Assembly: GCF_004310345.1 (NCBI RefSeq)
Contig: NZ_SISK01000001.1
Location: forward strand, 124,001 to 188,000
Direction of reading: 5' to 3'
Source of the DNA: Paracoccus subflavus
GTDB taxonomy: Bacteria; Pseudomonadota; Alphaproteobacteria; Rhodobacterales; Rhodobacteraceae
Length of the DNA: 64,000 nt
Positions 2,498 to 19,273 of this stretch are shown here, piece by piece (positions within the stretch are counted from its first letter, which is position 1; every line of letters begins with the position of its first letter). The notes beneath the pieces were generated by a model that ran no database searches, was not told where the DNA came from, and was given only the letters and a program-made list of their open reading frames with translations. The position numbers and the translations under genes were made by a program.

Positions 2498-3678
2498 TGT
2501 GGCGCAACATCGCCTCGAATTTCCTGACGCTGCTGATCGTGCTGCTGATCGCCGCCGCGGCGGCGGTGGCCTGGGGCAAGCATCAGTTCAGCGGGCCGGG
2601 GCCAAGCGCGGTTGCCCAGTGTGTGCAGGTGTCGCGCGGCGCCAGCCTGAACGCCGTCAGCCAGCAACTGGTGGAACAGGGGGCGATCAGCAATGCCTAT
2701 GTCTTTCGGGCCGGAACCGACTATCTGGACAAGGCGCGGGACCTGAAGTTCGGCAGCTATCTGGTGCCGCCCGCCGCCAGCATGGCGCAGATTGTCGAGG
2801 CGATCACGGCGGGCGGGCCTTCGACCTGCGGGACCGAGGTTCTGGTCCGCGTGGGCGTGCGCGAGAACACCGTGCTGCTGCGCGACCTGAATCCCGACAC
2901 CGGCGCGTTCGAGGAAATGGCGCGCTATGACCCGGCGACCGAAACCGCGCCCGAGGCGATCCTGGCGGCGGTGGACCGCCCCGGTGCCCGGCTGCGCGTC
3001 GCCATGGCCGAGGGCGTGACAAGCTGGCAGGTGGTCGAGGCGCTGAAGGCCGCGTCGTTCCTGACGGGCGAGGTCGATGACATCCCTGCCGAAGGCAGCC
3101 TGGCGCCCGACACCTATGAGGTCGAGAAGGGCAGCGACCGCAACGCGTTGCTGGCCGAGATGGCGCAGCGGCAGGCGACGATTCTGGCCGAGGAATGGGA
3201 GGCGCGCCCCTTTGGCCTGCCCTACGAGTCGCCCGAGGAGGCGCTGATCATGGCGTCCATCGTGGAAAAGGAAACCGGCGTCCCCGAGGAACGCCCGCAG
3301 GTCGCCAGCGTCTTTGTCAACCGGCTGGAGCGGGGGATGCGGCTGGAAACGGACCCCACGGTGATCTATGGCATCACGAACGGGCAGGGCATCCTGGATC
3401 GCGGGCTGCGGCGATCCGAACTGGCGGCCACGACGCCCTATAACACCTATCGCATCGACGGCCTGCCGCCCACGCCGATCGCCAATCCGGGGCGGGCGGC
3501 GATCCAGGCGGCGCTGAACCCGGATACCACGGACTATATCTTTTTCGTGGCGGACGGGACCGGCGGGCACGCGTTCTCGCGCACGCTGGAGGAACACAAC
3601 GCCGCCGTTGCCCGCTGGCGCGAGATCGAGCGTCAGCAGGGCGGCGATCCGTCCAGTCCCGTGCAGGGCGACGGCTGA
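2494..3678 (+). CDS. mltG: Endolytic murein transglycosylase MltG (YceG-like)
   Basis: MltG cleaves nascent peptidoglycan strands at the inner membrane and is thought to set glycan chain ends. The 394-residue protein has one N-terminal membrane anchor (about 10-27), then a periplasmic YceG domain. The conserved SIVEKETG segment (about 256-262) carries the catalytic Glu, followed by the family blocks ending in DPTVIYG and the NPGRAAIQAALNP block near the C-terminus. Two adjacent Met codons (2494 and 2497) can serve as start; 2494 overlaps the fabF stop (ATGA). A strong hairpin with a short T run follows, so the fabF-mltG transcript probably ends there. Confidence 0.93.
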   Translation: MMWRNIASNFLTLLIVLLIAAAAAVAWGKHQFSGPGPSAVAQCVQVSRGASLNAVSQQLVEQGAISNAYVFRAGTDYLDKARDLKFGSYLVPPAASMAQIVEAITAGGPSTCGTEVLVRVGVRENTVLLRDLNPDTGAFEEMARYDPATETAPEAILAAVDRPGARLRVAMAEGVTSWQVVEALKAASFLTGEVDDIPAEGSLAPDTYEVEKGSDRNALLAEMAQRQATILAEEWEARPFGLPYESPEEALIMASIVEKETGVPEERPQVASVFVNRLERGMRLETDPTVIYGITNGQGILDRGLRRSELAATTPYNTYRIDGLPPTPIANPGRAAIQAALNPDTTDYIFFVADGTGGHAFSRTLEEHNAAVARWREIERQQGGDPSSPVQGDG

Positions 3679-3704
3679 ACCGCAAGCCGTTCAAAGGGTT
3701 TGAC

Positions 3705-3748
3705 AAAGCCCGCCCCCGGTCGCAGGCTTGCGGCAGAGGGCGGGCTTT
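3705..3748 (+). terminator. Hairpin terminator after mltG
   Basis: An 11-bp perfect inverted repeat, AAAGCCCGCCC (3705-3715) and GGGCGGGCTTT (3738-3748), encloses a 22-nt loop and ends in TTTT. It lies 26 bp past the mltG stop and fits a Rho-independent terminator, although the loop is long and the T run short. Confidence 0.6.
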
Positions 3749-3786
3749 TGCGATCCGGCCCGGCGACCATTGCAGGAGGATGAGCC

Positions 3787-4230
3787 ATGAAACTGTCGGA
3801 CATGTTTTCCACGCTGGCCGAAAACGCGCGCACCTATGAGCAGCGCATGGCCGAGTGGCAGGACCAGATGAACGCCCGCAACGAGGAAATGATGGCCGGC
3901 GCCCGCAAGTGGCAGGAAACCACCATGCAACGCCAGGACGAGATGAACCGTCAGATCCGCAGCTATTTCGAGGAAGCCGGGGAAAATGTCCGCAACCAGT
4001 GGCAGACCATGCAGTCCGCCTGGGAGGATCAGTTCCAGAAGATGCGCGAGAAGGGCGAGGAAATGCGGGCGGCGGCGATGAAATCGGGGCATTTCCCCGA
4101 ATGGGCCGAAGCCTATGCGGCCCAGATGGTCGGCTTTGCCCAGAAGATGCAGGACGAGGCGGCAAACGCGATCGCGACCGCCACCGAGGCCCACAGCAAG
4201 CCCAAGGACAACAACAACAAGACCGGATGA
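3787..4230 (+). CDS. Small coiled-coil protein of unknown function
   Basis: 147 residues with no domain I recognise. The sequence is almost entirely charged helix rich in Glu, Gln, Met, Arg and Trp, with heptad-like spacing over about residues 10-130 and a disordered polar tail (KPKDNNNKTG). There is no signal peptide or membrane segment. A strong AGGAGGA Shine-Dalgarno sits 6 nt before the ATG, which suggests good expression. It stands alone between the mltG terminator and the GTA promoter region. The Met/Gln-rich amphipathic helix loosely recalls phasins and other surface-coating proteins, but that is only a compositional impression. Confidence 0.75.
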   Translation: MKLSDMFSTLAENARTYEQRMAEWQDQMNARNEEMMAGARKWQETTMQRQDEMNRQIRSYFEEAGENVRNQWQTMQSAWEDQFQKMREKGEEMRAAAMKSGHFPEWAEAYAAQMVGFAQKMQDEAANAIATATEAHSKPKDNNNKTG

Positions 4231-4292
4231 TTCCCCCTTCCCATGGGGCGCGGACGGTCGGGAAACAGGGCTGACGCATCCGTCCGACCCTT

Positions 4293-4313
4293 GGTGTTGC
4301 GCGGGTGTTGCGC
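4293..4313. promoter_or_regulatory. Direct repeat upstream of the GTA promoter
   Basis: GGTGTTGCGC occurs at 4293-4302 and again at 4304-4313, an 11-bp period (about one helical turn). The pair lies about 65-80 bp upstream of the candidate -35 box, where an activator dimer would bind. A role for a GTA activator (GafA-type) is inference. Confidence 0.35.
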
Positions 4314-4368
4314 CATTTAGGGCTTTGTTCTGAAAGGTGAATATACTGCAACCTGTGCGCGCCATGGT

Positions 4369-4404
4369 TTAGTGATTGACTAACCGAACGCCCTCAGGTA
4401 GAAC
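4369..4404 (+). promoter_or_regulatory. Candidate GTA operon promoter with overlapping dyad
   Basis: TTGACT (4376-4381), a 17-bp spacer and TAGAAC (4399-4404) form a reasonable housekeeping-type promoter, with transcription expected from about 4411. The dyad TTAGT-GATTG-ACTAA (4369-4383) overlaps the -35 box and could be an operator. This is the only good match I see in the 276-bp gap between the coiled-coil gene and the first GTA gene. Confidence 0.5.
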
Positions 4405-4430
4405 ATACCTATGCTGGGAAAGTTGAACGA

Positions 4431-4461
4431 GCGGCCGGGGGCGACCCCAAGGCCGCTTTTT
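4431..4461 (+). terminator. Leader terminator/attenuator before the GTA genes
   Basis: GCGGCC (4431-4436) and GGGG (4437-4440) pair with CCCC (4445-4448) and GGCCGC (4451-4456), with a GCGA loop and a 2-nt bulge, followed directly by TTTTT (4457-4461). This is a textbook intrinsic terminator shape. It lies between the candidate promoter and the first GTA start codon at 4507, so transcripts would stop unless RNA polymerase is modified or the hairpin is prevented. Confidence 0.65.
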
Positions 4462-4506
4462 CGATTTTCGGCTCGTGCGGACAGGACACGAGGCGGGACA
4501 GTTTGC

Positions 4507-4920
4507 ATGAACGATATGGAATGGCGCGGGGTCGGTGATCCCGAGGGACCGTTCGTGGCCGGGCACGACCGGGTTCGGGCGGATACAGTGCCGATTGCCA
4601 GTGCGGCGGCGGAGATGGACCCAAGCGAGGCCATCGCCGTCGCCGAGGGGTTGTTCTGGTCCTATGTCAAGGATCTGAAGCGTCACGAGGCCGCGTTGGA
4701 GGCCAAGCAAAGCGGGGCCGTCGACCCTGCCGAGCTGAAGGAAGCCATGCAAACCGCAAAGGTCGTCCGCGAGGCGGTGGGCCTTTTGATGGCGGAAAGG
4801 AACAGGGTTGACAAGCTACGCAAGGATATCGCCGGAGGGGTCGGAGGCGGCAGCCTCGACCTTGACGGGGCAAGAGATGAAATCGGGCGCCGCCTGGCTT
4901 GCCTCCGCCGCGCCGGATGA
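4507..4920 (+). CDS. GTA small terminase-like protein (orfg1)
   Basis: A 137-residue protein in the orfg1 position of the RcGTA cluster, where the product acts as the small terminase partner that recruits DNA to the packaging motor. It is mostly helical, with a charged central segment (about 40-110: WSYVKDLKRHEAALEAKQSG and on) typical of phage small terminases. No DNA-binding motif is obvious by eye. I chose ATG 4507 because it follows the leader terminator. An in-frame ATG at 4411 would coincide with the predicted transcription start (leaderless) and add 32 Arg-rich residues. The 3' end overlaps the large terminase by 44 bp, unusually long for this operon. Confidence 0.75.
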   Translation: MNDMEWRGVGDPEGPFVAGHDRVRADTVPIASAAAEMDPSEAIAVAEGLFWSYVKDLKRHEAALEAKQSGAVDPAELKEAMQTAKVVREAVGLLMAERNRVDKLRKDIAGGVGGGSLDLDGARDEIGRRLACLRRAG

Positions 4921-6217
4921 GGTTGACGCATTCCTGGGCGGTCTGTCCGAGAATGCACTGATGGCACTGCCCTGGCTGTTCGAGTTCTGGGCCTTGCCCC
5001 ACCAGTTGCCCCCCGAGGGCTGCTGGAAGACCTGGGTCATCATGGGCGGACGCGGCGCGGGCAAGACCCGTGCCGGGTCCGAATGGGTGCGGCGGATGGT
5101 CGAGGGACCGACCGCCGCCGCACCGGGGAAATGCCATCGTCTGGCGCTGGTGGGGGAAACCTTCGACCAGGTGCGCGAGGTGATGGTGTTCGGTGAATCG
5201 GGCATCCTGGCCTGTTCGCCCCCCGACCGGCGCCCGGTCTGGGAGGCCGGTCGGCGGCGGTTGGTCTGGGCCAATGGTGCGACTGCCACCGTCTATTCCG
5301 CGCATGAGCCAGAGGCCTTGCGCGGGCCCCAGTTCGACGCGGCCTGGGCCGACGAGCTGGCCAAGTGGAAGAAGTCAGAGGATGTCTGGGACATGCTGCA
5401 ATTCGCGCTGCGGCTGGGGGATCATCCGCAGCAGGTCGTCACGACGACGCCGCGCAATGTGGGCGTGCTGAAGCGCATCCTGGGCAACGCCTCGACCGTG
5501 ACGACGCACGCGCCGACCGATGCGAACCGCGCCTATCTGGCGGAAAGTTTCCTGGCCGAGGTGGCATCGCGTTACGGCGGCACGCGGCTGGGGCGGCAGG
5601 AACTGGACGGCGTGCTGCTGGACGATGTCGAAGGCGCGTTGTGGACCACAGCGATGCTGGAAGGTGCGCGGATCGAGCGGGCGCCCAAGCTGTCCCGCGT
5701 TGTCGTGGCGGTCGATCCTGCCGTGACGGCGGGCAAGGCCAGCGACGAATGCGGGATCGTCGTGGCAGGCGTTGTCACCAATGGTGAGCCGGGCGCCTGG
5801 ACGGCCTATGTCCTTGAGGACGCCACGATCAAGGGCGGGCCGCTGGACTGGGCGCGTGCCGCCATCGCGGCAATGGATCGCCATGGCGCCGAGCGTCTGG
5901 TTGCCGAGGTGAACCAGGGCGGCGATCTGGTCGAGAGCGTGATCAGGCAGGTGGACCCGCTGGTCCCGTTCCGGGCGCTGCGGGCAGGCCGCGGCAAGGG
6001 ACTGCGGGCCGAGCCTGTTGCGGCGTTGTACGAGCAGGGACGCGTCAAGCACCTGCGGGGCCTGGGCGCGCTGGAGGACCAGATGTGCCAGATGACGGTG
6101 CGCGGGTTCGAGGGCCGTGGCAGTCCCGACCGGCTGGATGCGCTGGTCTGGGCGATCCATGAACTGGTGATCGAGCCGGGGGCAAGCTGGCGGCGGCCGC
6201 AGATGCGGCGGCTGTAA
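4877..6217 (+). CDS. GTA large terminase, ATPase and nuclease (orfg2)
   Basis: The DNA-packaging motor of the particle, which translocates genomic DNA into the head and cuts it at headful length. The 446-residue protein has the Walker A loop GGRGAGKT (57-64), a Walker B-like FDAAWADE (153-160) with the catalytic acidic pair, and an RNase H-like nuclease domain opening with VVVAVDPA (about 275-282), whose Asp280 should bind metal. Length and order match Terminase_6/GTA orfg2. The start at 4877 gives the usual N-terminus; the 4808 ATG lies deeper in orfg1 and adds an unconserved segment. Two hairpins separate it from the portal gene. Confidence 0.93.
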   Translation: MKSGAAWLASAAPDEVDAFLGGLSENALMALPWLFEFWALPHQLPPEGCWKTWVIMGGRGAGKTRAGSEWVRRMVEGPTAAAPGKCHRLALVGETFDQVREVMVFGESGILACSPPDRRPVWEAGRRRLVWANGATATVYSAHEPEALRGPQFDAAWADELAKWKKSEDVWDMLQFALRLGDHPQQVVTTTPRNVGVLKRILGNASTVTTHAPTDANRAYLAESFLAEVASRYGGTRLGRQELDGVLLDDVEGALWTTAMLEGARIERAPKLSRVVVAVDPAVTAGKASDECGIVVAGVVTNGEPGAWTAYVLEDATIKGGPLDWARAAIAAMDRHGAERLVAEVNQGGDLVESVIRQVDPLVPFRALRAGRGKGLRAEPVAALYEQGRVKHLRGLGALEDQMCQMTVRGFEGRGSPDRLDALVWAIHELVIEPGASWRRPQMRRL

Positions 6218-6222
6218 GAAAG

Positions 6223-6266
6223 CCGGGGCGCTGCCCCGGACCCCGGGATATTTGGACCAAGATGAA
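6223..6266 (+). repeat. Dispersed intergenic repeat ending in GGGATATT
   Basis: A 7-bp hairpin, CCGGGGC-GCT-GCCCCGG (6223-6239), is followed by ACCCCGGGATATTTGG and an AAGATGAA tail. A related element occurs inverted at 54756-54808. I know this layout as a common extragenic element after genes in Paracoccus and Rhodobacter relatives. The portal frame can be read back into it (ATG 6262), which is why that start was not used. Confidence 0.55.
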
Positions 6267-6267
6267 A

Positions 6268-6292
6268 GGGCTGCCGTTTGGCGGCCCTTTTT
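6268..6292 (+). terminator. Intrinsic terminator between GTA terminase and portal
   Basis: GGGCTGCC (6268-6275), loop GTTT, GGCGGCCC (6280-6287; one G-U pair) and TTTTT (6288-6292) make a compact intrinsic terminator preceded by AAA. It sits inside the GTA operon, 21 bp before the portal start, so it should reduce expression of all later genes unless read through. Confidence 0.65.
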
Positions 6293-6312
6293 CGTTGGCA
6301 TGGAGGCGAGCT

Positions 6313-7497
6313 ATGGCGTTTCGGTTGTTTTCGCGGGAGGAGAAGCAGGCTTCCCCGCCAGAAAGAAAGGCCAGTGCGACGGGCCGTGTTGTGGCGCTGG
6401 CCAGCGGCGCGGGCCGCGCGGTCTGGTCGTCGCGCGATACCGCCAGCCTGACGCGGGGCGGTTTCGTGGGCAACCCGGTCGGTTTTCGCTGCGTCAAGCT
6501 GATTGCCGAGGCGGGGGCCGCGGTGCCCCTGATCTGCGAGGATCGCGACCGGCGTTATGACATTCATCCGGTGCTGGATCTGCTGCGGCGGCCCAATCCG
6601 GGGCAGGGGCGGGCCGAACTGTTCGAGGCGCTGTTCGGCCAGATGCTGCTGTCGGGCAACGGTTATGTCGAGGCCGCGGGACTGGGCGCGCAGGGTCTGC
6701 CCGAGGAACTGCACATCCTGCGTTCCGACCGGATGAGCATCGTGCCGGGCGCGGATGGATGGCCCATCGCCTATGATTATTCGGTGGGCGGGCGCAAGCA
6801 CCGGTTCGATATGACCGGCAGTCCCGACCCGATCTGCCACGTCAAATCCTTTCATCCGCAGGACGACCATTACGGCCTGTCCCCCATGCAGGCGGCAGCG
6901 GTGGCGCTGGACGTGCACAACAGCGCAAGCGCCTGGTCCAAGGCCCTGCTGGACAATGCGGCCCGGCCCAGCGGCGCCATCGTCTATAAGGGCGTGGACG
7001 GGCAGGGGGTTCTGTCGCCCGAGCAGTACGACCGGCTGGTGGGCGAGATCGAGATGAACCACCAGGGCGCGCGCAACGCGGGGCGCCCGATGCTGCTGGA
7101 AGGCGGGCTGGATTGGAAACCAATGGGGTTTTCGCCCAGCGACATGGAATTTCATGAAACGAAGCTGTCGGCGGCACGCGAAGTCGCACTGGCCTTCGGC
7201 GTGCCGCCGATGCTGCTGGGCATTCCCGGTGACGCGACTTATGCCAATTATGCCGAGGCGCACCGGGCGTTCTATCGCCTGACCGTGCTGCCGCTGGCCA
7301 CGCGGGTGGCGGCGTCAGTCGCCTGGTGGCTGTCCGAGCATCTGGGTGCCGAATTCGAGCTGCGCCCCGACCCCGACCGCATTCCGGCCTTGGCCGAGGA
7401 GCGAGACCAGCAATGGGCGCGGATCGGCGCGGCGACATTCCTGACGGATGCGGAAAAGCGGGCGCTGCTGGGCCTGCCGCCGCTGGCCGAGGCGTGA
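6313..7497 (+). CDS. GTA portal protein (orfg3)
   Basis: The HK97-type portal forms the dodecameric ring at the head vertex through which DNA enters. The 394-residue protein resembles phage portal family proteins in length and in blocks such as GFVGNPVGFRCVKLIAEA (about 40-60), GNGYVEAAGLG, and the late GVPPMLLGIPGDATYANYAE segment that marks the clip/stem region. ATG 6313 has GGAGGCGAG just upstream; the in-frame ATG at 6262 would start in the repeat element. It lies between the large terminase and the protease, as in R. capsulatus. Confidence 0.9.
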   Translation: MAFRLFSREEKQASPPERKASATGRVVALASGAGRAVWSSRDTASLTRGGFVGNPVGFRCVKLIAEAGAAVPLICEDRDRRYDIHPVLDLLRRPNPGQGRAELFEALFGQMLLSGNGYVEAAGLGAQGLPEELHILRSDRMSIVPGADGWPIAYDYSVGGRKHRFDMTGSPDPICHVKSFHPQDDHYGLSPMQAAAVALDVHNSASAWSKALLDNAARPSGAIVYKGVDGQGVLSPEQYDRLVGEIEMNHQGARNAGRPMLLEGGLDWKPMGFSPSDMEFHETKLSAAREVALAFGVPPMLLGIPGDATYANYAEAHRAFYRLTVLPLATRVAASVAWWLSEHLGAEFELRPDPDRIPALAEERDQQWARIGAATFLTDAEKRALLGLPPLAEA

Positions 7498-7501
7498 TCC
7501 C

Positions 7502-7735
7502 ATGGAGGGGTCGCGTTTTGTGAAGGACAGCTTCGGTTGGCACGACCAGCGATTCGAGGCTCAGGAACGGATCATGGCGCTGCAATTCGGCACCGTGGAA
7601 AAGCGGCTGGAGCGGATCGAGGCCCTGATCGAAGGGCTGGAGAGGCGCCTGTGGATGACCGTCTATGGCGTCGTGGCCGTGATCCTGACGCAGGCAGTGC
7701 AGGGCATTCTTGAATTCGCGCCCAAAGGAGGCTGA
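7502..7735 (+). CDS. Small membrane protein of the GTA cluster (orfg3.5)
   Basis: A 77-residue protein in the orfg3.5 position. Residues about 25-48 form an amphipathic charged helix (VEKRLERIEALIEGLERRL), followed by one hydrophobic segment (MTVYGVVAVILTQAVQGIL, about 50-68) and a short basic tail. The job of orfg3.5 is not known to me. The membrane segment would allow an assembly-scaffold or holin-like role, but nothing here proves either. A GTG at 7520, 9 nt after GGAGGGG, is an equally good start and would give 71 residues. The stop is 3 bp before the protease start. Confidence 0.65.
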   Translation: MEGSRFVKDSFGWHDQRFEAQERIMALQFGTVEKRLERIEALIEGLERRLWMTVYGVVAVILTQAVQGILEFAPKGG

Positions 7736-7738
7736 GGC

Positions 7739-8266
7739 ATGGTTCCGGGACTTGAGGTGAAATTCGCAGGCGGGGCGCCGGTCCTGACGGATGGACAGAT
7801 GATCGAGGGCTATGCCAGCCTGTTCGGCCTTACCGATCAGGGAGGGGATGCCGTGGCGCCAGGGGCGTTTGGCGCATCGCTGGCAAGGCTGGCGGCCAAG
7901 GGCGACAAGGTGCGGATGCTGTGGCAGCATGATCCGCAAAAGCCCATCGGCGTCTGGGACGAGATCAGCGAGGACGAGAAGGGCCTGTGGGTCAAGGGAC
8001 GGCTTCTGCCAGAGGTCGCCCTGGCGCGGGAGGCTGCCGCGCTCATCCAGGCGGGCGCGATCGACGGCTTGTCGATCGGCTATCGCACGATCCGCGCCGA
8101 GCGCGACCAAAAGGGCCGCCGCGTGCTGGCCGAGGTCGAGTTGTGGGAAGTGTCGCTGGTCACGTTCCCGATGCTGCCCGAGGCCAAGGTGGGTCGCAAG
8201 GATTCGGACGATCTGCGCGAATTTGCGGCATTGTTTTCTGCCGCGACCGAGGCGCTGCGGGTTTGA
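7739..8266 (+). CDS. GTA prohead protease (orfg4), HK97/S78 family
   Basis: A serine protease that trims the capsid protein's N-terminal domain during head maturation. The 175-residue protein starts GLEVKFAG and has the herpesvirus-assemblin-like fold pattern: His64 in LWQHDPQKPIG and Ser112 in DGLSIGYRT, the expected catalytic pair, with the ALWEVSLVTFPM-type block (here LWEVSLVTFPML) near residue 140. An AAAGGAGG Shine-Dalgarno precedes the ATG. A 20-bp GC hairpin (8273-8293) lies between it and the capsid gene. Confidence 0.92.
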   Translation: MVPGLEVKFAGGAPVLTDGQMIEGYASLFGLTDQGGDAVAPGAFGASLARLAAKGDKVRMLWQHDPQKPIGVWDEISEDEKGLWVKGRLLPEVALAREAAALIQAGAIDGLSIGYRTIRAERDQKGRRVLAEVELWEVSLVTFPMLPEAKVGRKDSDDLREFAALFSAATEALRV

Positions 8267-8272
8267 TGGTTT

Positions 8273-8293
8273 CGGGGGGATGAAGCCCCCCCG
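8273..8293 (+). other. GC hairpin between protease and capsid genes
   Basis: CGGGGGG (8273-8279) pairs with CCCCCCG (8287-8293) across a 7-nt loop. There is no T run, so it is more likely an RNA stability or processing element protecting the capsid mRNA 5' side than a terminator. Function is inferred. Confidence 0.4.
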
Positions 8294-8372
8294 GTCTGTG
8301 GGTTTTGGATCGCCATGGTGGTCCGAAAACAAGGGGCGGGTCGGCCCCGATCATCGCGATGAGGAGAAGATC

Positions 8373-9533
8373 ATGACCGAGGTGAAAGCCGCGGAGGGTG
8401 GCGGCACGGCCGTCGACCTGAAGGAAGCCATGCGGGGGTTCGTCGGCGAGCTCAAAGGTTTCCGCAATGACATCCAGACGAAACTTGCTGCACAGGAAGA
8501 ACGCATGACCATGCTTGAACGCAAGACCATCCGCGGCCGCGCGCCCTTGTCCACCGTGGCCGAGGTCGAGGCGCCGCATCAGAAAGCCTTCAGCGCCTAT
8601 CTGCGCAGCGGCGACGATGACGGCCTGCGCGGCTTGGTCATCGAGGAAAAAGGGCTGACGGTCGCTGGCGACGGCGGTTTCCTGGCAGCGCCGCAGGTTG
8701 CGGAAACGGTCCAGAACGTGCTGCGGTCCGGTGCTTCGCTGCGCAAGCTGGCCAATGTCGTGACCATCGAGTCCGCCACCTATGAGGTGCTGGTCGAGAA
8801 GAACGAGATGGGTGCGGGCTGGGCGGACGAGGATTCCGCCGCCGACACGGCACCAGGCAATGTCGAGCGTATCTCGATCCCGCTGCATGAACTGTCGGCC
8901 ATGCCCAAGGCTAGCCAGCGTCTGCTGGACGACGCGGCCTTTGATGTCGAAGCCTGGCTGGCCGAGCGCATCGCCGACAAGTTTGCCCGGTCCGAGTCGG
9001 CCGCATTCGTCGTGGGTGATGGCCAGTCCAAGCCGCGAGGCATTCTTTCCTATCCGACTGCGTCGAATTCGACAGCCGGGGCCAATACCATCGGGGTGAT
9101 CGAAACGGCTTCGCTTGGCGGCTTTGATGCAGCGGCTCCTGCCGATGCATTGATCGATCTGATCTATGCGCTGGGCGCCGAATATCGGGTCAACGCCAGC
9201 TTTGTCATGAATTCGAAGACAGCGGCTGCGATCCGCAAGATGAAGGATGCCGATGGCCGGTTCCTGTGGACCGATGCGCTGGCTGCCGGGCAGACTCCGC
9301 AACTGCTGGGCTATCCGGTCATGATCAGCGAAGACATGCCCGACATCGGTCCCGATTCCCTGGCCGTCGCATTTGGCGATTTCCGCGCCGCCTATACCAT
9401 CGTCGAGCGCCCCGACCTGCGCGTCCTGCGGGATCCCTTCAGCGCCAAGCCGCATGTCTTGTTCTATGCCACCAAGCGCGTGGGCGGCGGGGTGACCGAT
9501 TTCCGTGCTGTCAAGCTGTTGAAGTTCGCCTGA
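8373..9533 (+). CDS. GTA major capsid protein (orfg5), HK97 fold
   Basis: The 386-residue major capsid protein forms the shell. The first ~100 residues are charged helix (delta/scaffold domain; EERMTMLERKT) and should be removed by the orfg4 protease. The remainder matches the HK97-like phage major capsid family: GGFLAAPQVAETV, SLRKLANVVTI, GWADEDSAA, a P-rich SQRLLDDAAFDVEAWLAERIADKF helix and the C-terminal RVGGGVTDFRAVKLLKF block. ATG 8373 follows GAGGAG closely; longer in-frame starts run back through the hairpin and protease gene. It is the only GTA gene bracketed by large hairpins on both sides. Confidence 0.93.
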   Translation: MTEVKAAEGGGTAVDLKEAMRGFVGELKGFRNDIQTKLAAQEERMTMLERKTIRGRAPLSTVAEVEAPHQKAFSAYLRSGDDDGLRGLVIEEKGLTVAGDGGFLAAPQVAETVQNVLRSGASLRKLANVVTIESATYEVLVEKNEMGAGWADEDSAADTAPGNVERISIPLHELSAMPKASQRLLDDAAFDVEAWLAERIADKFARSESAAFVVGDGQSKPRGILSYPTASNSTAGANTIGVIETASLGGFDAAAPADALIDLIYALGAEYRVNASFVMNSKTAAAIRKMKDADGRFLWTDALAAGQTPQLLGYPVMISEDMPDIGPDSLAVAFGDFRAAYTIVERPDLRVLRDPFSAKPHVLFYATKRVGGGVTDFRAVKLLKFA

Positions 9534-9557
9534 CCCCAAACGACGGGTTCGGGTGAA

Positions 9558-9645
9558 GGGAAAGACCGCGCGCGGGTGGCCGGCCATCCCGGCTTTGCAA
9601 CTGTCCGCGCGTGCTGATGGCTGGCGCGCGGGCGCGGTCTTTCCC
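9558..9645 (+). other. Long-range inverted repeat after the capsid gene
   Basis: GGGAAAGACCGCGC (9558-9571) is perfectly complementary to GCGCGGTCTTTCCC (9632-9645), a 14-bp stem enclosing 60 nt that can fold further. It begins 24 bp past the capsid stop and may cap the 3' end of a stable capsid mRNA. Confidence 0.5.
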
Positions 9646-9660
9646 GTCCTGACACAAGGT

Positions 9661-9686
9661 CAAGGCCCCGGCCGGGGGCCTTGTTT
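9661..9686 (+). terminator. Partial terminator after the GTA capsid gene
   Basis: CAAGGCCCC (9661-9669) and GGGGCCTTG (9675-9683) form a perfect 9-bp stem with a 5-nt loop, followed by TTT. With the long inverted repeat just upstream it would make capsid transcripts more abundant than those for the connector and tail genes, which suits capsid stoichiometry. Confidence 0.5.
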
Positions 9687-9727
9687 CGGTGAATGACAGG
9701 CGGACAGCAAGACGGGAGGTTCGCGAA

Positions 9728-10345
9728 ATGTTGCTGATCGAGGAAACGGCGCCGGCAGCCGAGGCGCTGCCTGTTGCGGCGCTGCGCGAGCATTTGCGGC
9801 TTGGAACGGGGTTCGAGATCGCCCAAGACAACGCCGAGGACGTCGCGTTGGCCGGTTTTTTGCGGGCCGCCATCGCCACGATCGAAGCCCGTACCGGCAA
9901 GGTATTGCTGACGCGCCGCTTTCGGATGCAATTGGACGACTGGCGCGACAGGCTGGGCCAGACCTTGCCCCTGGCGCCGGTGATTGCCGTCGAGAAGATC
10001 GAGATCGACGATGGAATGGGCACCGTGACAGAAGTGCCGCCGGACAACTGGCGGCTGCTGCCGCATGGACAGAGGCCCATGATCCTGCCCGCTGGCGTGA
10101 TCCTGCCGCATGTACCCCGCCGGGGTTTGGTCAATGTGACCTTTACTGCAGGATTCGGCGATCGCTGGGATCAGGTGCCTGCTGATCTGGGACAGGCGGT
10201 CCTCATATTGGCTGCCCGCTACTATGAAGATCGCGGCATGGACGGAAACAGGGGTGCAATGCCGTTTGGCGTCAGCACACTGATCGAGCGATGGCGTCAG
10301 GTGCGCACGCTGGCTGGACGCGGCAGCCGCGAGGCAAGCCGATGA
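9728..10345 (+). CDS. GTA head-tail connector adaptor (orfg6)
   Basis: A 205-residue protein in the orfg6 slot, the adaptor ring that joins the portal to the head-closure protein. Its N-terminal part (LPVAALREHLRLGTGFE, then a helical block LAGFLRAAIATIEARTG) is the usual start of gp6-like head-tail connectors. The C-terminal half has the WDQVPADLGQAVLILAARYYEDRG helix common to this family. ATG 9728 lies 7 nt after GGGAGGT; the earlier ATG at 9689 lacks a site. The stop overlaps the next start by ATGA. Confidence 0.85.
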   Translation: MLLIEETAPAAEALPVAALREHLRLGTGFEIAQDNAEDVALAGFLRAAIATIEARTGKVLLTRRFRMQLDDWRDRLGQTLPLAPVIAVEKIEIDDGMGTVTEVPPDNWRLLPHGQRPMILPAGVILPHVPRRGLVNVTFTAGFGDRWDQVPADLGQAVLILAARYYEDRGMDGNRGAMPFGVSTLIERWRQVRTLAGRGSREASR

Positions 10346-10680
10346 ATACACCCCGGCTGAATGTTCAACTGGATCTGGAAACTCCCGTTCGCCAGTCCGA
10401 CGAGATGGGCGGCTATCGCATCGTCTGGCAGAGGATAGGATCGTTGTGGGTCGAGATGAAAGCGACCACCGGAACGGAACGCGGAGCCGAGGTCGGACCG
10501 GAGAGTGTGGTGTTCTGGCGCATCACAACGCGCGGCGCACGATACGGCGATCCACGGCGTCCTGCTGCCGGCCAGAGGCTGCGGATGGGACCACGCCGGT
10601 TTGTCATCGAAGCTGTGGCCGAACGTGATCCGACCGGTCTGTGGCTGACCTGCTTTGCCCGAGAAGAGGAACAAACATGA
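10342..10680 (+). CDS. GTA head closure protein (orfg7)
   Basis: A 112-residue protein of the phage head-tail adaptor (gp16/SPP1-like) type, which closes the head after DNA filling. It has the family's short beta-rich layout: a partner-binding start (LNVQLDLETPVRQSDEMGG), the VWQRIGSLWVEMKATTGTER block and the RYGDPRRPAAGQRLRMGPRRF strand region. It is translationally coupled on both sides: the start overlaps the orfg6 stop, and the stop overlaps the orfg8 start. Confidence 0.85.
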   Translation: MNTPRLNVQLDLETPVRQSDEMGGYRIVWQRIGSLWVEMKATTGTERGAEVGPESVVFWRITTRGARYGDPRRPAAGQRLRMGPRRFVIEAVAERDPTGLWLTCFAREEEQT

Positions 10681-11102
10681 GCTTTGCCGCAAGCGTCGCC
10701 CTGCAAGGGGCGGTCTATCAGCAGTTGCGTACCGATCCCGCCCTGCAAGACCTTGTGGGAGATGCGATCTTTGATGCGATGCCGGTAGAAACGCCGAATG
10801 GAGTTTTTGTTTCGCTTGGTCCCGAAGAGGTTAGGAATGCGGGTGACGTGACGGCGGCAGGATCGAGACATGATTTCATCGTGTCGGTTCTGTCTGGCGC
10901 GGATCAGGGGGTAGGTTTTGCAGCCGTCAAGGCTGCGGCTGCCGCTGTTGCCGATGCACTGGATCAGGCGCAATTGGCGCTAAGCCGAGGGCGACTTACC
11001 GCTTTGTGGTTCCTGCGCGCCCGCGCGCGGCGGGTTGAAAACGGGGCTGCGCGTCGGGTCGATCTGACCTTTCGCGCACGGATTGATCTGGCTGAGGAGT
11101 AG
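10677..11102 (+). CDS. GTA tail terminator protein (orfg8), DUF3168
   Basis: A 141-residue DUF3168-type protein, the tail-completion ring that caps the tail tube at the head side. It has the family features: an N-terminal ALQGAVYQQLRTDPALQ helix, a central beta stretch with GVFVSLGPEEVRNAGD, HDFIVSVLSG and a long Ala-rich helix, then ARRVENGAARRVDLTFRARI at the end. ATG 10677 overlaps the orfg7 stop. Base composition here is slightly less GC-rich than in the flanking head genes. Confidence 0.85.
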   Translation: MSFAASVALQGAVYQQLRTDPALQDLVGDAIFDAMPVETPNGVFVSLGPEEVRNAGDVTAAGSRHDFIVSVLSGADQGVGFAAVKAAAAAVADALDQAQLALSRGRLTALWFLRARARRVENGAARRVDLTFRARIDLAEE

Positions 11103-11107
11103 GGCCA

Positions 11108-11521
11108 ATGGCGGTACAGAATGGACGCGATCTGCTGATCAAGATGGACATGACCGGGAGCGGAGCGTTCGAGACGGTTGCAGGGCTTCGCGCCTCGCGA
11201 TTGTCGTTCAATGCTGAAACCATCGATGTGACCAGCCTGGAAAGCCAAGGTGGTTGGCGCGAGCTGCTGGGTGGCGCGGGGGTGCGCAGCGCCTCGATTT
11301 CCGGGTCGGGGGTTTTTCGCGACGCTAGTACCGATGGCCGTGCACGGCAGATTTTCTTTGACGGAGAAGTGCCTCGGTTCCAGGTCGTTATCCCGGATTT
11401 TGGCACGGTCGAAGGACCATTCCAGATCACCGCGCTGGAATATGCCGGGAGCTACGATGGCGAGGCGACCTATGAGGTGACGTTAGCCTCGGCTGGGGCC
11501 CTGAGTTTTGTGGCCATGTGA
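11108..11521 (+). CDS. GTA major tail tube protein (orfg9)
   Basis: A 137-residue tail tube monomer of the TP901-1/GTA major tail family, which stacks into the tube that conducts DNA. The diagnostic blocks are NGRDLLIKMDM near the start, TIDVTSLESQGGWRELLGGAGVRS (about 37-61), which is the usual signature for this family, and a C-terminal SYDGEATYEVTLASAGALSF strand pair. GAGGAG lies 8 nt before the ATG. The stop codon shares a base with the orfg10 start. Confidence 0.9.
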   Translation: MAVQNGRDLLIKMDMTGSGAFETVAGLRASRLSFNAETIDVTSLESQGGWRELLGGAGVRSASISGSGVFRDASTDGRARQIFFDGEVPRFQVVIPDFGTVEGPFQITALEYAGSYDGEATYEVTLASAGALSFVAM

Positions 11522-11835
11522 TGGCAAACCCGATGCGCGGAGAGGTCGAAGTAGTATTGGACGGCACCCTCCACGTCGCCCGTTTGACGCTGGGCGCCCT
11601 GGCAGAGTTAGAGCATGACCTGGGTGCCGACAGCCTGATGGCCATTGCAGAACGGTTCGAACAGGGCCGGTTCAGCAGCCGCGATGTGCTGGCTGTGCTT
11701 GTCGCAGGCCTGCGGGGCGGGGGCTGGAGCGGCTCGGCCGCGGAACTTCTGACAGTGGACATCGGCGGCGGGCCGGTGGCGGCGGGCCGTGCCGCTGCCG
11801 AACTTTTGGCACGGGCATTTCGGATCCCGGCATGA
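11521..11835 (+). CDS. GTA tail assembly chaperone-type protein (orfg10)
   Basis: A 104-residue protein in the orfg10 slot, known as gene transfer agent family protein (GTA tail assembly chaperone family). It opens with RGEVEVVLDGTLHVARLTLGALAELE, the recognisable family start, and has a helical C-terminal half. In phages this position encodes chaperones that coat the tape measure before the tube assembles. ATG 11521 overlaps the orfg9 stop by one base; the GTG one codon earlier is less likely. Confidence 0.85.
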   Translation: MANPMRGEVEVVLDGTLHVARLTLGALAELEHDLGADSLMAIAERFEQGRFSSRDVLAVLVAGLRGGGWSGSAAELLTVDIGGGPVAAGRAAAELLARAFRIPA

Positions 11836-12035
11836 CTGGCGGTCTGGACTGGCCGGGGTTGATGCGGGCCGGGATGCGGGGGCTTGGTTTGCGCCCGGAT
11901 CAGTTCTGGGCGCTGACGCCCGCGGAATTGGCGCTGATGCTGGGTGTCGAGGCGGGGCCGCCTGCCATGACGCGCAACCGGCTGGCGGAACTGGCGGCGC
12001 GCTATCCCGACCGGCCGACGGAAACATCTGGATAA
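11832..12035 (+). CDS. Small GTA tail assembly chaperone (orfg10.1)
   Basis: A 67-residue protein with the compact pattern GLDWPGLMRAGMRGLGLRPDQFWALTPAELALMLG, which matches the TIGR02216-type phage tail assembly chaperone found between orfg10 and orfg11 in Rhodobacteraceae. It probably pairs with orfg10, as G and G-T chaperones do in other phages; here they are separate genes joined by an ATGA overlap instead of a frameshift. No frameshift signal is evident. Confidence 0.85.
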   Translation: MTGGLDWPGLMRAGMRGLGLRPDQFWALTPAELALMLGVEAGPPAMTRNRLAELAARYPDRPTETSG

Positions 12036-12047
12036 GAGGCGAGGGCG

Positions 12048-12704
12048 ATGGCCAACAAGAACGGGTTCGGCTCTGCGCTGGACGACTTGGACGAGGGACT
12101 CGGCAATACCGGGCGCATGACGGCTGCCTTTGAGGCCGAACTGGAGCGGCTGCGCCAATCGGTAACCGTGACGGCGCGCGAGGTCGGATCGCTGAGTTCG
12201 GGTATCGAGGGCGGCTTGCGACGGGCCTTTGACGGGCTGGTTTTTGACGGCGAAAAGCTGTCCGAGGCGCTGAAGGGCATAGGTCGTTCGATTGCGGACA
12301 CCGTGTTTTCGATGGCAATGAAGCCCGTGGAAAATGCCCTGGCCGGATCGTTGGCCCAAGGGATCGGCGGCATGCTGTCAGGAGCAATGCCATTTGCCAA
12401 TGGCGGGGCTTTTGTCCAAGGGCGTGTGATGCCCTTTGCCAAGGGCGGTGTCGTCAGCCAGCCGACGCACTTTCCCATGCGCGGGGCGACCGGCCTGATG
12501 GGCGAGGCAGGTCCCGAAGCCATCATGCCACTGCGCCGGGGGGCGGACGGAAGGCTGGGGGTTGCGTCGGCCGGGGGTGGTTCGCGGCCGGTGAACGTCA
12601 CGGTGAACGTCTCTACGCCCGATGTTGCGGGCTTTCAGCGCAGCCAGGCCCAGATCGCGGCGCAACTTGGTCGTGTCATGGCCCGTGGCGAACGTAACGG
12701 CTGA
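12048..12704 (+). CDS. GTA tape measure protein (orfg11)
   Basis: This protein sets tail length. At 218 residues it is far shorter than phage tape measures but normal for RcGTA-type particles with short tails. The N-terminal half is helical (DDLDEGLGNTGRMTAAFEAE). The middle holds a hydrophobic Gly/Ala stretch (about 80-125: GIGRSIADTVFSMAMKPVEN, then LAQGIGGMLSGAMPF). The C-terminal half has the family block PTHFPMRGATGLMGEAGPEA followed by basic residues. It lies 12 bp after orfg10.1 and 15 bp before orfg12. Confidence 0.9.
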   Translation: MANKNGFGSALDDLDEGLGNTGRMTAAFEAELERLRQSVTVTAREVGSLSSGIEGGLRRAFDGLVFDGEKLSEALKGIGRSIADTVFSMAMKPVENALAGSLAQGIGGMLSGAMPFANGGAFVQGRVMPFAKGGVVSQPTHFPMRGATGLMGEAGPEAIMPLRRGADGRLGVASAGGGSRPVNVTVNVSTPDVAGFQRSQAQIAAQLGRVMARGERNG

Positions 12705-12719
12705 ACACAGGATCGGCTC

Positions 12720-13352
12720 ATGGCTTTTCACGATGTAAGATTTCCGGCCAATCTGTCCTTCGGATCGCTGGGCGGGCCAGAGCGGCGGACCGAGATCGTT
12801 GCGCTGGCCAGCGGGTTCGAGGAGCGCAATACCCCCTGGGCCCATGCCCGGCGGCGTTATGACGCCGGAATGGGGCTGCGGTCGCTGGACGATCTGGCGG
12901 CCCTGATCGCCTTTTTCGAAGCCCGTGCGGGTCAGTTGCACGGGTTTCGCTGGAAGGATTGGTCCGATTACAAGAGTTGTTTGCCATCGCGCGCGCCGGC
13001 CTTTGACGATCAGGTCATCGCCCGGGGGGACGGCGTGCAGAAGGTCTTTGCGTTGACCAAAATCTATTCCTCGGGTCCGGGCAGCTATGTCCGGCCGATC
13101 ACGAAGCCTGTGCGCGACAGCGTCCGGGCCGGGGTCGGCGGAAGCGAAGTGTTTGCCGGTAGGCATTATTCGGTAGATCACGCAACAGGAGTTGTCAGTT
13201 TTGCCGATGCCCCCGAGGCTGGAGCGGAGATAACGGCAGGTTATGAGTTTGACGTACCCGTGCGCTTCGACACCGACCGCATCGCTGTTTCCGTTGCCTC
13301 TTTTCAGGCAGGCGAGATCCCCGACATTCCCGTTATCGAGGTGCGGGTATGA
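12720..13352 (+). CDS. GTA distal tail/baseplate protein (orfg12), DUF2460
   Basis: A 210-residue DUF2460 (TIGR02217) protein, the distal tail hub at the base of the tube. The family start FHDVRFPANLSFGSLGGPER, the ARRRYDAGMGLRSLDDLAAL block, GFRWKDWSDYKSC (about 80) and the end DTDRIAVSVASFQAGEIPDI are all present. The stop overlaps the next start (ATGA). Confidence 0.92.
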   Translation: MAFHDVRFPANLSFGSLGGPERRTEIVALASGFEERNTPWAHARRRYDAGMGLRSLDDLAALIAFFEARAGQLHGFRWKDWSDYKSCLPSRAPAFDDQVIARGDGVQKVFALTKIYSSGPGSYVRPITKPVRDSVRAGVGGSEVFAGRHYSVDHATGVVSFADAPEAGAEITAGYEFDVPVRFDTDRIAVSVASFQAGEIPDIPVIEVRV

Positions 13353-14182
13353 CTGCGACGACGATTGCGCGGGCCTGGATGGTGCGCCGCGCCGATGGGA
13401 TGGTGCTGGGCTTTACTGATCATGACGCCAGCCTGACCTTTGAGGGTATCCGATTTCTTCCGGACCATGGCATGTCGGCCCGCGCGCTGGTTCAGGCAAC
13501 CGGTCTTTCGGTTGACAACTCTGAAGCCGAAGGTGCGCTATCGGATGATGCAATCACCGAAAAGGATGTCCTTGCGGGTCGGTGGGACGGTGCCGAGGTC
13601 CGTATGTGGGAGGTAGATTGGACCCGTGTCGCATCACGCCGCCTGATCTTTGCCGGCAGCCTGGGAGAGATTGCTCGTTCCCGTGGCGCCTTCCGGGCCG
13701 AACTAAGGGGGCTTTCCGAGCCTCTCAATGCAGCCCGCGGTCTGGTGTTTCATCCGCGCTGTTCAGCACGGCTGGGTGACAGCAATTGCAAGCGTATCCT
13801 GACTGGCGCGACGTTCATGACCGAGGCAAGCATTGCAAAAGTCAGCGATGGCAGCGTTTTGGGTTTTACGGCTTTTCCCGCCTACGGCCCCGGCTGGTTC
13901 GAGCGGGGCAATATTCTGGTTCTGAGTGGTAAGGCCGAGGGGCTTCATGCCTCAATCAAGGACGACGTTGCCAGCCCGGGTGGACGCCGCGAGATCGCAC
14001 TGTGGCAGGCTTTGGGCATCTTGCCCGACATCGGCGATCGGGTGCGCATCGTGGCGGGCTGCGACAAGCGTGCGGAAACGTGTCGCAAAAAGTTTGATAA
14101 TTTCCTGAATTTCCGCGGGTTTCCTCACATACCTTCCGAAGACTGGATCATGGCGCCGCAGACGGGGGGACGACGTGGTTGA
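13349..14182 (+). CDS. GTA baseplate hub protein (orfg13), DUF2163
   Basis: A 277-residue DUF2163 (TIGR02218) protein, a baseplate hub component. The motif LGFTDHDASLTFEGIRF (about 22-38) and a set of conserved cysteines near 133, 142, 235 and 243 (CSARLGDSNCKR; GCDKRAETCRKKF) match the family. In RcGTA this protein is reported to carry an iron-sulfur cluster, and the two Cys pairs here would permit the same. It overlaps orfg14 by 8 bp. Confidence 0.9.
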   Translation: MTATTIARAWMVRRADGMVLGFTDHDASLTFEGIRFLPDHGMSARALVQATGLSVDNSEAEGALSDDAITEKDVLAGRWDGAEVRMWEVDWTRVASRRLIFAGSLGEIARSRGAFRAELRGLSEPLNAARGLVFHPRCSARLGDSNCKRILTGATFMTEASIAKVSDGSVLGFTAFPAYGPGWFERGNILVLSGKAEGLHASIKDDVASPGGRREIALWQALGILPDIGDRVRIVAGCDKRAETCRKKFDNFLNFRGFPHIPSEDWIMAPQTGGRRG

Positions 14183-14600
14183 TGTTGTGCATCTGGCGCA
14201 GGCCTGGATCGGAACACCTTATCATCACCAGGCCAGCGTGAAGGGAGTCGCTTGCGATTGTCTTGGGCTGGTGCGGGGCATCTGGCGCGAACGCTATGGG
14301 TCCGAGCCCGAGGTTTTGCCCCCTTATACGCCCGATTGGGGCGAGGGAGGCGGCCACGAGGTTCTGTTTTCGGCCGCGCTGCGCCATCTGGTGCCGGTCG
14401 CACAGGTGGAACCGACGCGTCCAGGGGATGTATTGCTGTTCAGGATGCGGGCGGGCGCCATTGCCAAGCATCTGGGCGTCATGTCCGCCGTCGGCGAGGC
14501 CCCGCGCTTCATTCACGCCTACAACGCCCATGGCGTCATCGACAGCCCCCTGACGATGCCTTGGCAGAACCGGATCGTGGCCCGGTTCCGCTTTCCCTGA
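14175..14600 (+). CDS. GTA tail NlpC/P60 peptidoglycan peptidase (orfg14)
   Basis: A 141-residue NlpC/P60 cysteine peptidase (TIGR02219) carried on the tail tip, thought to open the recipient cell wall. The catalytic Cys29 is in ACDCLGLVRG, His99 in AKHLGVM, and a third polar residue lies around HAYNAHG (114-120). Translation begins at GTG 14175, 5 nt after a GGGGGGA site and inside the end of orfg13; no ATG gives the Cys-containing N-terminus. It is followed by a 24-bp gap with AGGAGA before the tip gene. Confidence 0.92.
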   Translation: MVDVVHLAQAWIGTPYHHQASVKGVACDCLGLVRGIWRERYGSEPEVLPPYTPDWGEGGGHEVLFSAALRHLVPVAQVEPTRPGDVLLFRMRAGAIAKHLGVMSAVGEAPRFIHAYNAHGVIDSPLTMPWQNRIVARFRFP

Positions 14601-14624
14601 ATTCAAGACCTTTAGGAGACCGTG

Positions 14625-18509: not shown

Positions 18510-19209
18510 AACCGCACGTCTGCAACTGCCGCTTCTCCAGTCAGCGCAGGCCCAGAAGCATGTGACCGTCAACGAGGCGCTGATGCGCCTGGACGGGATG
18601 GCGAACATCGTTCTGGAAAGCACTTCCACGCTGAACCCTCCAGAAGCCGTGATCGAGGGTCAATGCTGGGGTGTTCCTTTGGACGCATCGGGCGCCTGGG
18701 CTAGACGATCCGGAAAGATTGCCATCGGGGCCAACGGAGGCTGGATCTTTGTTGACCCCACGCGCGGGTTGCGGGCCTTCGTTGCCGATACCGGTTTGCA
18801 GGCCATCCATACCGGCCAAGGCTGGTTTCATGGCGGTTCCACCCTGGGCGCCACCGGCGCGGGGCTGGCGCACGGGATGGCCGATGACGAGGTGACGGTG
18901 GGAACGGGCACGGTCTTTGACACAAGGATCGCGATCCCCGCCAATGCCATGGTTATCGGGGCCGTGGCCCGTGTGACCCAGACGCTGACCGGCAGCCTGC
19001 AAAGCTGGCGGCTGGGCAGCCCCGGATCGGACAATCGCTTCGGGCAGGGTTTGGGCAAGGCCGCCGGGTCTTGGGCAAGAGGAATGCTGGGAACACCAAT
19101 GACCTATTATTCGGATTCAACCCTGATCATGACGGCTGAAGGGGGCATGTTTGACGGCGGCAATGTCAAGCTGGCCGTGCATTGGATGGAGCTTCGCCTG
19201 CCCGACTGA
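18499..19209 (+). CDS. DUF2793 fibre/receptor-binding protein of the GTA
   Basis: A 236-residue DUF2793 protein. The N-terminal ~90 residues have the family signature (TARLQLPLLQSAQAQKHVTV, then NEALMRLDG). The C-terminal part (about 110-236) is a beta-rich, Gly-rich module (SWRLGSPGSDNRFGQGLGKA) like phage carbohydrate-binding tips. It starts inside the end of orfg15, 5-6 nt after AGAGGA, so it belongs to the same operon. In R. capsulatus, as I recall, DUF2793 fibre genes needed for GTA are at a separate locus; here one is built into the main cluster. It probably sets which cell-surface glycans the particle recognises. Confidence 0.82.
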   Translation: MSTETARLQLPLLQSAQAQKHVTVNEALMRLDGMANIVLESTSTLNPPEAVIEGQCWGVPLDASGAWARRSGKIAIGANGGWIFVDPTRGLRAFVADTGLQAIHTGQGWFHGGSTLGATGAGLAHGMADDEVTVGTGTVFDTRIAIPANAMVIGAVARVTQTLTGSLQSWRLGSPGSDNRFGQGLGKAAGSWARGMLGTPMTYYSDSTLIMTAEGGMFDGGNVKLAVHWMELRLPD

Positions 19210-19273
19210 CAGGCCTTCTTTCATTGGCCGGAACTTCGCGTTACAACGAGCCATGACTCACGCGGAGCCCGCC

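Follow-up and report, generated by a model that had tools for sequence, protein, structure and literature searches.

A conserved leader terminator of the Paracoccus gene transfer agent operon and its possible read-through with the aid of GafA

The DNA analysed here, a 64,000-nucleotide stretch of the Paracoccus subflavus genome (the window), carries at positions ~4507-19209 a gene transfer agent (GTA) cluster of the Rhodobacter capsulatus (RcGTA) type, the leader of which contains a conserved intrinsic terminator between the promoter and the first gene, g1. Comparative analyses point, with a probability that we put at about two in three, to a role for this leader terminator in silencing the GTA operon, with promoter-loaded GafA enabling its read-through. 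In the proposed mechanism, unaided polymerase from the GTA promoter would stop at the leader terminator, releasing an RNA of ~50 bases before g1 is reached. GafA would bind at or around the spacer between the -35 and -10 elements and would join the polymerase during promoter escape to give a termination-resistant complex, which could then pass the leader terminator as well as a second terminator that follows the large terminase gene, and continue to the end of the ~15-kb operon. We infer from sequence comparison that termination occurs in vivo, that GafA is the anti-terminator here and that leader read-through is the controlled step.

The leader terminator (4429-4461, + strand) comprises a stem (4429-4436 with 4451-4458), a loop (4437-4450) and a T-run (4457-4461). 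The folding energy of its nested stem is -26.3 kcal/mol (z -4.2), which none of 200 shuffled sequences equalled. The hairpin lies upstream of g1 and begins 53 bases from the start of the -35 element TTGACT, i.e. the terminator spans approximately +19 to +51 if transcription starts at 4411, a start site placed from the -10 spacing and the published R. capsulatus mapping. A general terminator scan in which loops were limited to 3-8 did not report it, and Rfam gave no match above gathering score over 3600-20200, with one sub-threshold match (E 0.9). We compared the window with 80 relative loci, being the best 80 of 260 large-terminase matches in named genomes (81 loci with the window); 59 of these (L033-L091) are all labelled Paracoccus except L048, L108 is also Paracoccus and the other 20 are from other genera or unnamed bacteria. 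The window, L033-L091 and L108 form the 61-row alignment of Paracoccus leaders. The loci are related by descent and the counts that follow are thus not counts of independent events. The leader element is present in 80 of 81 loci, with L109 the sole exception, and all 80 leaders contain a strong terminator by the rule shared across these tests (-15 kcal/mol or lower, at least four T of six), compared with 5.1% of shuffles. At least two of the four bases after the stem are T in 80/80 leaders, and at least three in 72/80. Two Rhodobacter loci, L103 and L111, from congeners of R. capsulatus, have the same leader terminator as Paracoccus; a pattern search for R. capsulatus itself gave no match (0 of 394).

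The pattern of variation within the hairpin is that of a paired structure. Identity over the 61 leaders is 97% and 91% for the stem arms and 75% for the loop; the stem varies by group (AAGCGGCC, AAGCGCCG, AAGCCGCC), with the opposite arm changing to match. Of the 80 leaders, 76 have G-C and 4 have C-G at pair 5, whereas at pair 6 there are 64 with G-C, 12 with C-G, 3 with G-T and 1 with T-G. In a covariation alignment (A2) of 57 rows, chosen by eye from 76 distinct segments with near-identical rows dropped, 97.1% of cells are paired, 27 cells have double changes and the covariation score is 0.230, versus a shuffle mean of 0.091 and a maximum of 0.068 among slid structures. A position-free scan over 8.6 kb of 61 Paracoccus and 20 other loci, employing a T-run rule slightly different from that of the fixed-gap test, located the coding-strand leader signal in adjoining bins in 46 and 13 of the 61 and in 3 and 18 of the 20; apart from the leader and the gap between g2 and g3 (below), the one further coding-strand bin within the cluster was a minor one with 4/20 loci of other genera, and there was nothing above 8/59 on the opposite strand. 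In 21 full clusters (the window and 20 genomes of the genus; cut-off -14 kcal/mol), the leader terminator is present in 21/21, the terminator between g2 (large terminase) and g3 (portal) in 19/21, and a terminator at every other place in at most 8.

The promoter upstream of the hairpin consists of TTGACT (4376-4381), a 17-base spacer and TAGAAC (4399-4404), all on the + strand, and is nearly invariant in the Paracoccus leaders, with 99% mean identity for the -35 element and 96% for the -10 element (columns 4398-4403). A preliminary description of this stretch had placed a candidate promoter at 4376-4404 and a strong terminator at 4431-4461, and both assignments are upheld by the comparisons. 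The -10 and -35 elements lie 103-108 and 126-131 bases, respectively, upstream of the g1 ATG. A generic sigma-70 scan missed this promoter because it accepts only T as the sixth base of the -10 element. The whole promoter pattern has one exact copy in the genome, the next best match having three mismatches; a reversed-pattern control gives more. Within the spacer, the core CGAACG (4385-4390, +), a candidate site for the C-terminal part of GafA (ZBE/QBE-like), is 95% identical versus 77% for the whole spacer, and CG-NN-CG is present in 51/61 Paracoccus loci, 15/19 other named loci and 18/21 loci of the wider order, i.e. in 84 of 101 promoters placed. A longer spacer dyad occurs only in some loci (L182, L199), with no joint change at its outer positions. 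The early transcribed bases (4410-4428, +), possibly a pause or loading element, are 94% identical in Paracoccus and are also kept outside the genus (consensus CATGCTAGGAGAAGTGGGC). Between the terminator and g1 is a further segment, GCTCGTGCGGACAGGACACGAGGCGGG (4471-4500, +), with 95% identity over the 61 leaders; the stretch 4471-4506 folds weakly (z -0.8). The combination of a near-consensus -35 element and a conserved terminator at ~+19 to +51 suggests that initiation is not the sole gate. The layout, with its conserved spacer core, conserved first ~20 transcribed bases and closely following terminator, would fit a promoter-loaded anti-terminator, and a special factor, most likely GafA, is probably required to read past the leader stop. 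In the lambda pR'/tR' system, tR' lies farther from the start than does the Paracoccus leader terminator. As separate observations, in some other genera the early transcribed stretch includes a -10-like TGCTAGAAG, which is a lead only, and CTCGTGCGGA, part of the post-terminator stretch, is found in many other genera but is absent from both Rhodobacter loci.

The genome encodes one full-length GafA (L127:1505-2644, 379 amino acids), with an N-terminal helix-turn-helix domain and a C-terminal DUF6456 domain. It was found via DUF6456; a location beside guaA, as reported for other Rhodobacterales, was not seen, with no gafA among the ten open reading frames (ORFs) scanned in the 16 kb around guaA. 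DUF6456 is present in 101/101 Paracoccus genomes, including those without g2, and among 14 control genomes in Caulobacter only. Sequence comparison shows where the leader terminator lies, that it is conserved and unique, that it has a T-run and a stem changing by compensatory pairs, and that GafA is present. A CtrA-like TTAACCACGCTTAAC lies ~55-70 bases upstream of gafA. No GafA was confirmed in the viral_contigs collection, and a GafA-like match labelled phage, MW462191.1, appears to be a bacterial chromosome contig; in its region 70124-82522 a gene for a small DNA-binding protein precedes a GafZ-like gene, and a gene for a sulfur acceptor protein is nearby.

The second conserved terminator lies in the gap between g2 and g3 (6265-6292, +), comprising a hairpin (6265-6290) followed by TT, and folds with its flanks at -21.9 kcal/mol (z -4.2); the general terminator scan reported it too. 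In this gap, 63/80 loci pass at -15 kcal/mol versus 10.5% of shuffles, and 68/80 at -10 kcal/mol versus 29.7%. In a fixed interval of ~250 bases after g2, the numbers for the named loci are 65/81 and 70/81, respectively, and the position-free scan located a coding-strand signal here in 21 and 23 of the 61 Paracoccus loci and in 4 and 11 of the 20 others.

To follow the leader terminator beyond these loci we used a covariance model of it, R1, the E-values of which are rough. R1 matches 98/101 Paracoccus genomes, with a single match in each; the three genomes missed, G016 (71% complete), G065 and G074, are also all without g2. In the order, R1 matches 101/196 genomes and 47/87 genera, with g2 being present in 189/196 genomes. 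The positions of 86 of the 102 order matches were checked, these being the matches with a listed g2 row plus G119, G125 and the second match in G135: 83 share the strand of g2 and precede it by 359-475 bases, and the other three are in G119 (no g2 found), in G125 (distant g2-like match only) and the second match in G135. A class sample gave R1 matches in 4/289 genomes, one labelled own, two labelled same family and one outside (G329); we take the last to be a chance match, tblastn having found no GTA gene in 5 kb and no GTA promoter being seen. In 20 of the 95 R1-negative genomes, a non-random sample mostly from the tops of the tables, a strong terminator lies 50-57 bases past the beginning of a TTGAC box in 8, occurs in the absence of that box in 2 and was missing from the region scanned in the other 10; on looser inspection of the same 20, approximately 11 have some hairpin with a T-run. 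A parallel R1-hit sample contained 20 regions from 19 genomes, mostly low-scoring, and the promoter could be placed in 21 of the 40 stretches. In a GTA remnant, L304 (G066:C7:52000-58500), which has a single late GTA gene in 6.5 kb and comes from a genome without g2, the promoter and leader are kept, with loss of the 5' arm of the terminator, and the decayed clusters L305, L307 and L308 retain the leader hairpin. In three loci of one genus, L160, L167 and L172 (G103, G126 and G138), g2 is kept and a strong leader terminator was not found; the TTGACT box and the GCGTGCTAGAAGG element remain in L160 and L167. No DNA relatives of the L103 leader were found in the phage collection, and matches to g2 in viral_contigs look, from their lengths and identity, like GTA clusters excised from bacterial genomes.

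Intergenic terminators commonly end upstream transcripts, and the leader hairpin may do likewise and so keep stray transcription out of the GTA operon, with GafA only recruiting polymerase; recruitment through omega has been published for GafA (PMC6363796, PMC9638019). We consider this unlikely: the hairpin is downstream of the promoter with a near-fixed spacing (53 bases here; 50-57 in 8 divergent loci), the leader sequence flanking it is conserved, and some upstream genes have their own terminator (3708-3745 here, with 14/61 Paracoccus loci having one in the corresponding bin at the upstream-gene end), while in L103 and L111 a terminator is present just upstream of the promoter. The inverted repeat could also be a DNA operator, e.g. 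for the N-terminal domain of GafA, rather than an RNA terminator. The N-terminal domain of R. capsulatus GafA binds fragments flanking the C-terminal site on both sides (PMC6363796, PMC9638019), and sequence conservation extends to both the early transcribed bases and the segment further downstream. However, the half-sites vary by compensatory pairs, the central part between them is 11-18 bases long, the T-run is on one side only and the terminator signal is confined to one strand, such that a pure operator seems improbable; a mixed operator and terminator function is possible.

Small regulatory RNAs usually begin with a conserved, single-stranded 5' region and end in a terminator of variable sequence. 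The build of the leader matches this layout, and the ~50-base terminated RNA might itself be regulatory, with the conserved 5' part pairing and the terminator being a normal 3' end. We give this little credence, given that there is one copy per genome in the genus, that it is located at the GTA operon in 83/86 of the order matches checked and that the genome of L304, which is without g2, has lost the 5' arm (a single case, with two other decayed clusters keeping the hairpin); full GTA expression would, moreover, still have to pass the stop. Attenuation via translation of a leader peptide from an ATG at 4411, i.e. at or near the first transcribed base, is very improbable. The ATG is conserved, and first codons encoding MLGE(M/V)GKR are present in 52/80 leaders, with near variants elsewhere, but the frame and stop are not conserved: the ORF has 10-173 codons over 79 loci, with ends scattered inside and past the hairpin. 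We therefore rejected a ribosome-mediated attenuator, for which a conserved leader ORF would be expected.

The Caulobacter crescentus GafY/GafZ-CcGTA system (Tran and Le 2024, PMC11150451) likewise has a GTA operon, a DUF6456 regulator, an element in the -35/-10 spacer and a terminator immediately behind the large terminase gene, gtaT. The spacer element there, the GafZ site, takes the form of an inverted repeat, and GafZ enables a fraction of the polymerase to pass the strong terminator, terGTA. Loss of GafZ also lowers a reporter without terGTA ~four-fold (PMC11150451), which hints at an effect in the leader too. The systems also differ: in Caulobacter the terminator consists of three 150-bp repeats after gtaT, the -35 element is degenerate, GafY and GafZ are separate, IHF is needed and the sections of PMC11150451 consulted describe no terminator in the leader, whereas Paracoccus has one fused GafA, a near-consensus -35 element and simple hairpin terminators, including one in the leader. 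The shared post-terminase position of a terminator may be regarded as a parallel and is no proof of descent. In R. capsulatus (Fogg 2019, PMC6363796; Sherlock and Fogg 2022, PMC9638019), GafA, the known direct GTA activator, is also a fused protein (379 amino acids here versus numbering to residue 382 there) and the promoter is about equally far from g1; the C-terminal part of GafA binds 75-125 bases upstream of g1, in a region said to hold the -10, the -35 and the start site. Lambdoid Q and Pseudomonas aeruginosa AlpA, as described in PMC11150451, act on a layout that resembles the Paracoccus leader: a protein-binding site (a candidate one here) within the promoter spacer, a conserved early transcript and a terminator downstream, although GafZ is reported there to show no similarity to the Q/AlpA anti-terminators. 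The possibility that GafA is an anti-terminator was raised as an open question by the Caulobacter authors (discussion of PMC11150451), and PMC13236601 cites work on anti-termination in the Bartonella GTA (eLife 2025). On the simplest account, GafA, a homologue of an experimentally supported anti-terminator, would load at the promoter and take polymerase beyond the stop.

Several observations weigh against read-through by GafA as the control of this operon. The published R. capsulatus model differs in invoking activation by recruitment of RNA polymerase through omega (PMC6363796, PMC9638019), whereas GafZ failed to pull down omega (PMC11150451); the mechanisms may therefore differ. In the R1-negative sample, a search at the fixed spacing from a TTGAC box yielded no strong terminator in 12/20 genomes, and no association of the box with the terminator was found (Fisher p = 1.0, n = 20). 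The leader stop is thus not required in every lineage. When the ~250-base interval after g2 was applied to 20 loci of the wider order, a non-random selection from the R1-negative and R1-hit sets, the g2-g3 terminator was found in only 4/20 at -15 kcal/mol and 5/20 at -10 kcal/mol. Within the leader itself, the outermost pair 8 (counting inwards from the T-run) is unpaired in 12/57 rows, and the early transcribed bases and the GCTCGTGCGGA segment are unaccounted for by a plain terminator. The omega-recruitment account is itself compatible with anti-termination by GafA.

GafA-dependent read-through of the leader terminator would explain the silence of a 15-kb, cell-lethal operon behind a good promoter, and a short leader RNA is predicted in non-producing cells. 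A broader proposal, that the main GTA on/off decision in the Rhodobacteraceae is release from a promoter-proximal terminator rather than promoter activation, is tentative and, on balance, somewhat doubtful. In that case polymerase would start continually at a near-consensus promoter and a leader RNA of ~50 bases would be made in all cells, with only GafA-loaded polymerase proceeding; the archetypal GTA would run a phage-like late-gene switch retained through domestication, with Caulobacter differing in having its stop further downstream and a weaker promoter. The leader provides a conserved, defined target for asking whether GafA anti-terminates, in many genera and including two Rhodobacter species. 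We recognised no account of this leader terminator among the papers listed by our searches on GTA, GafA and anti-termination, with most subscription papers and all supplements lying outside them; the words terminator, termination, antitermin- and hairpin are absent from the main texts of PMC6363796 and PMC9638019.

The preliminary description had counted four stops in the operon and suggested anti-termination control, leaving gaf homologues to be sought. The leader stop and that between the terminase and portal genes, placed at 6268-6292 and slightly larger in our analyses, are well supported, and the conserved leader terminator, one internal terminator, the GafA homologue and the fitting layout are consistent with the proposed control; the part of the proposal resting on two hairpins after the capsid gene was not supported. 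The long intergenic hairpin at 9558-9645 (+) folds very strongly (-65.4 kcal/mol, z -4.3); no T tract follows it immediately, and we do not class it as a terminator. The stretch 9661-9686, containing a terminator-like hairpin at 9663-9681 (+), folds less well (z -2.2; equalled by 3 of 200 shuffles), and its tail, TGTTTC, is interrupted. Terminators are present in the gap between the capsid gene and g6 in 17/79 loci at -15 kcal/mol versus 6.7% of shuffles and in 2/21 full clusters, the window among them, i.e. above chance but not conserved, and we rejected these hairpins as conserved terminators. The capsid-g6 stretch (9534-9730) is highly structured in Paracoccus relatives (~-55 to -118 kcal/mol over 133-205 bases), perhaps as an mRNA-stability or processing element. 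Over 3500-20500 on both strands there are 25 terminator-like sites versus 13.2 ± 3.7 in shuffles; the comparative evidence is stronger than this site count over the cluster.

Pfam matches over 4877-18509 identify the large terminase, portal, protease, capsid, connector, head completion and GTA-specific tail proteins, and Terminase_6, Phage_portal, Peptidase_S78, Phage_capsid, GTA_TIM and Rcc01698_C occur in the order expected for an RcGTA-type cluster. The small terminase gene g1 (4507-4920, +) is an ORF without a Pfam match, identified by position and synteny. It is followed by g2 (4877-6217, +; Terminase_6N and Terminase_6C), the product of which is 97-98% identical to its homologues in named relatives such as P. 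benzoatiresistens and P. aerius, and by g3 (6313-7497, +; Phage_portal), for which 6313 is the chosen start in an ORF from 6262. The 34 bases directly 3' of g2 (6218-6251) have a 94% identical copy ~75 kb further on in the same contig (G000:C11:204971-205004), resembling a dispersed repeat; the window itself is G000:C11:124001-188000.

Upstream of the promoter, the intergenic stretch 4232-4370 has 56% mean identity over the 61 leaders. It contains tandem TGTTGCGC repeats (4295-4313, +; 4295-4302 and 4306-4313), a candidate upstream activator site with 80% mean column identity (4293-4315). The repeat spacing is 11 in the window and ~21-22 in several other leaders, and the TGTTGCGC 8-mer by itself is not rare, with 6 found in the window versus 4.1 expected. 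TGTTGC motifs are present both in these tandem repeats and upstream of gafA (L127 ~1340-1408).

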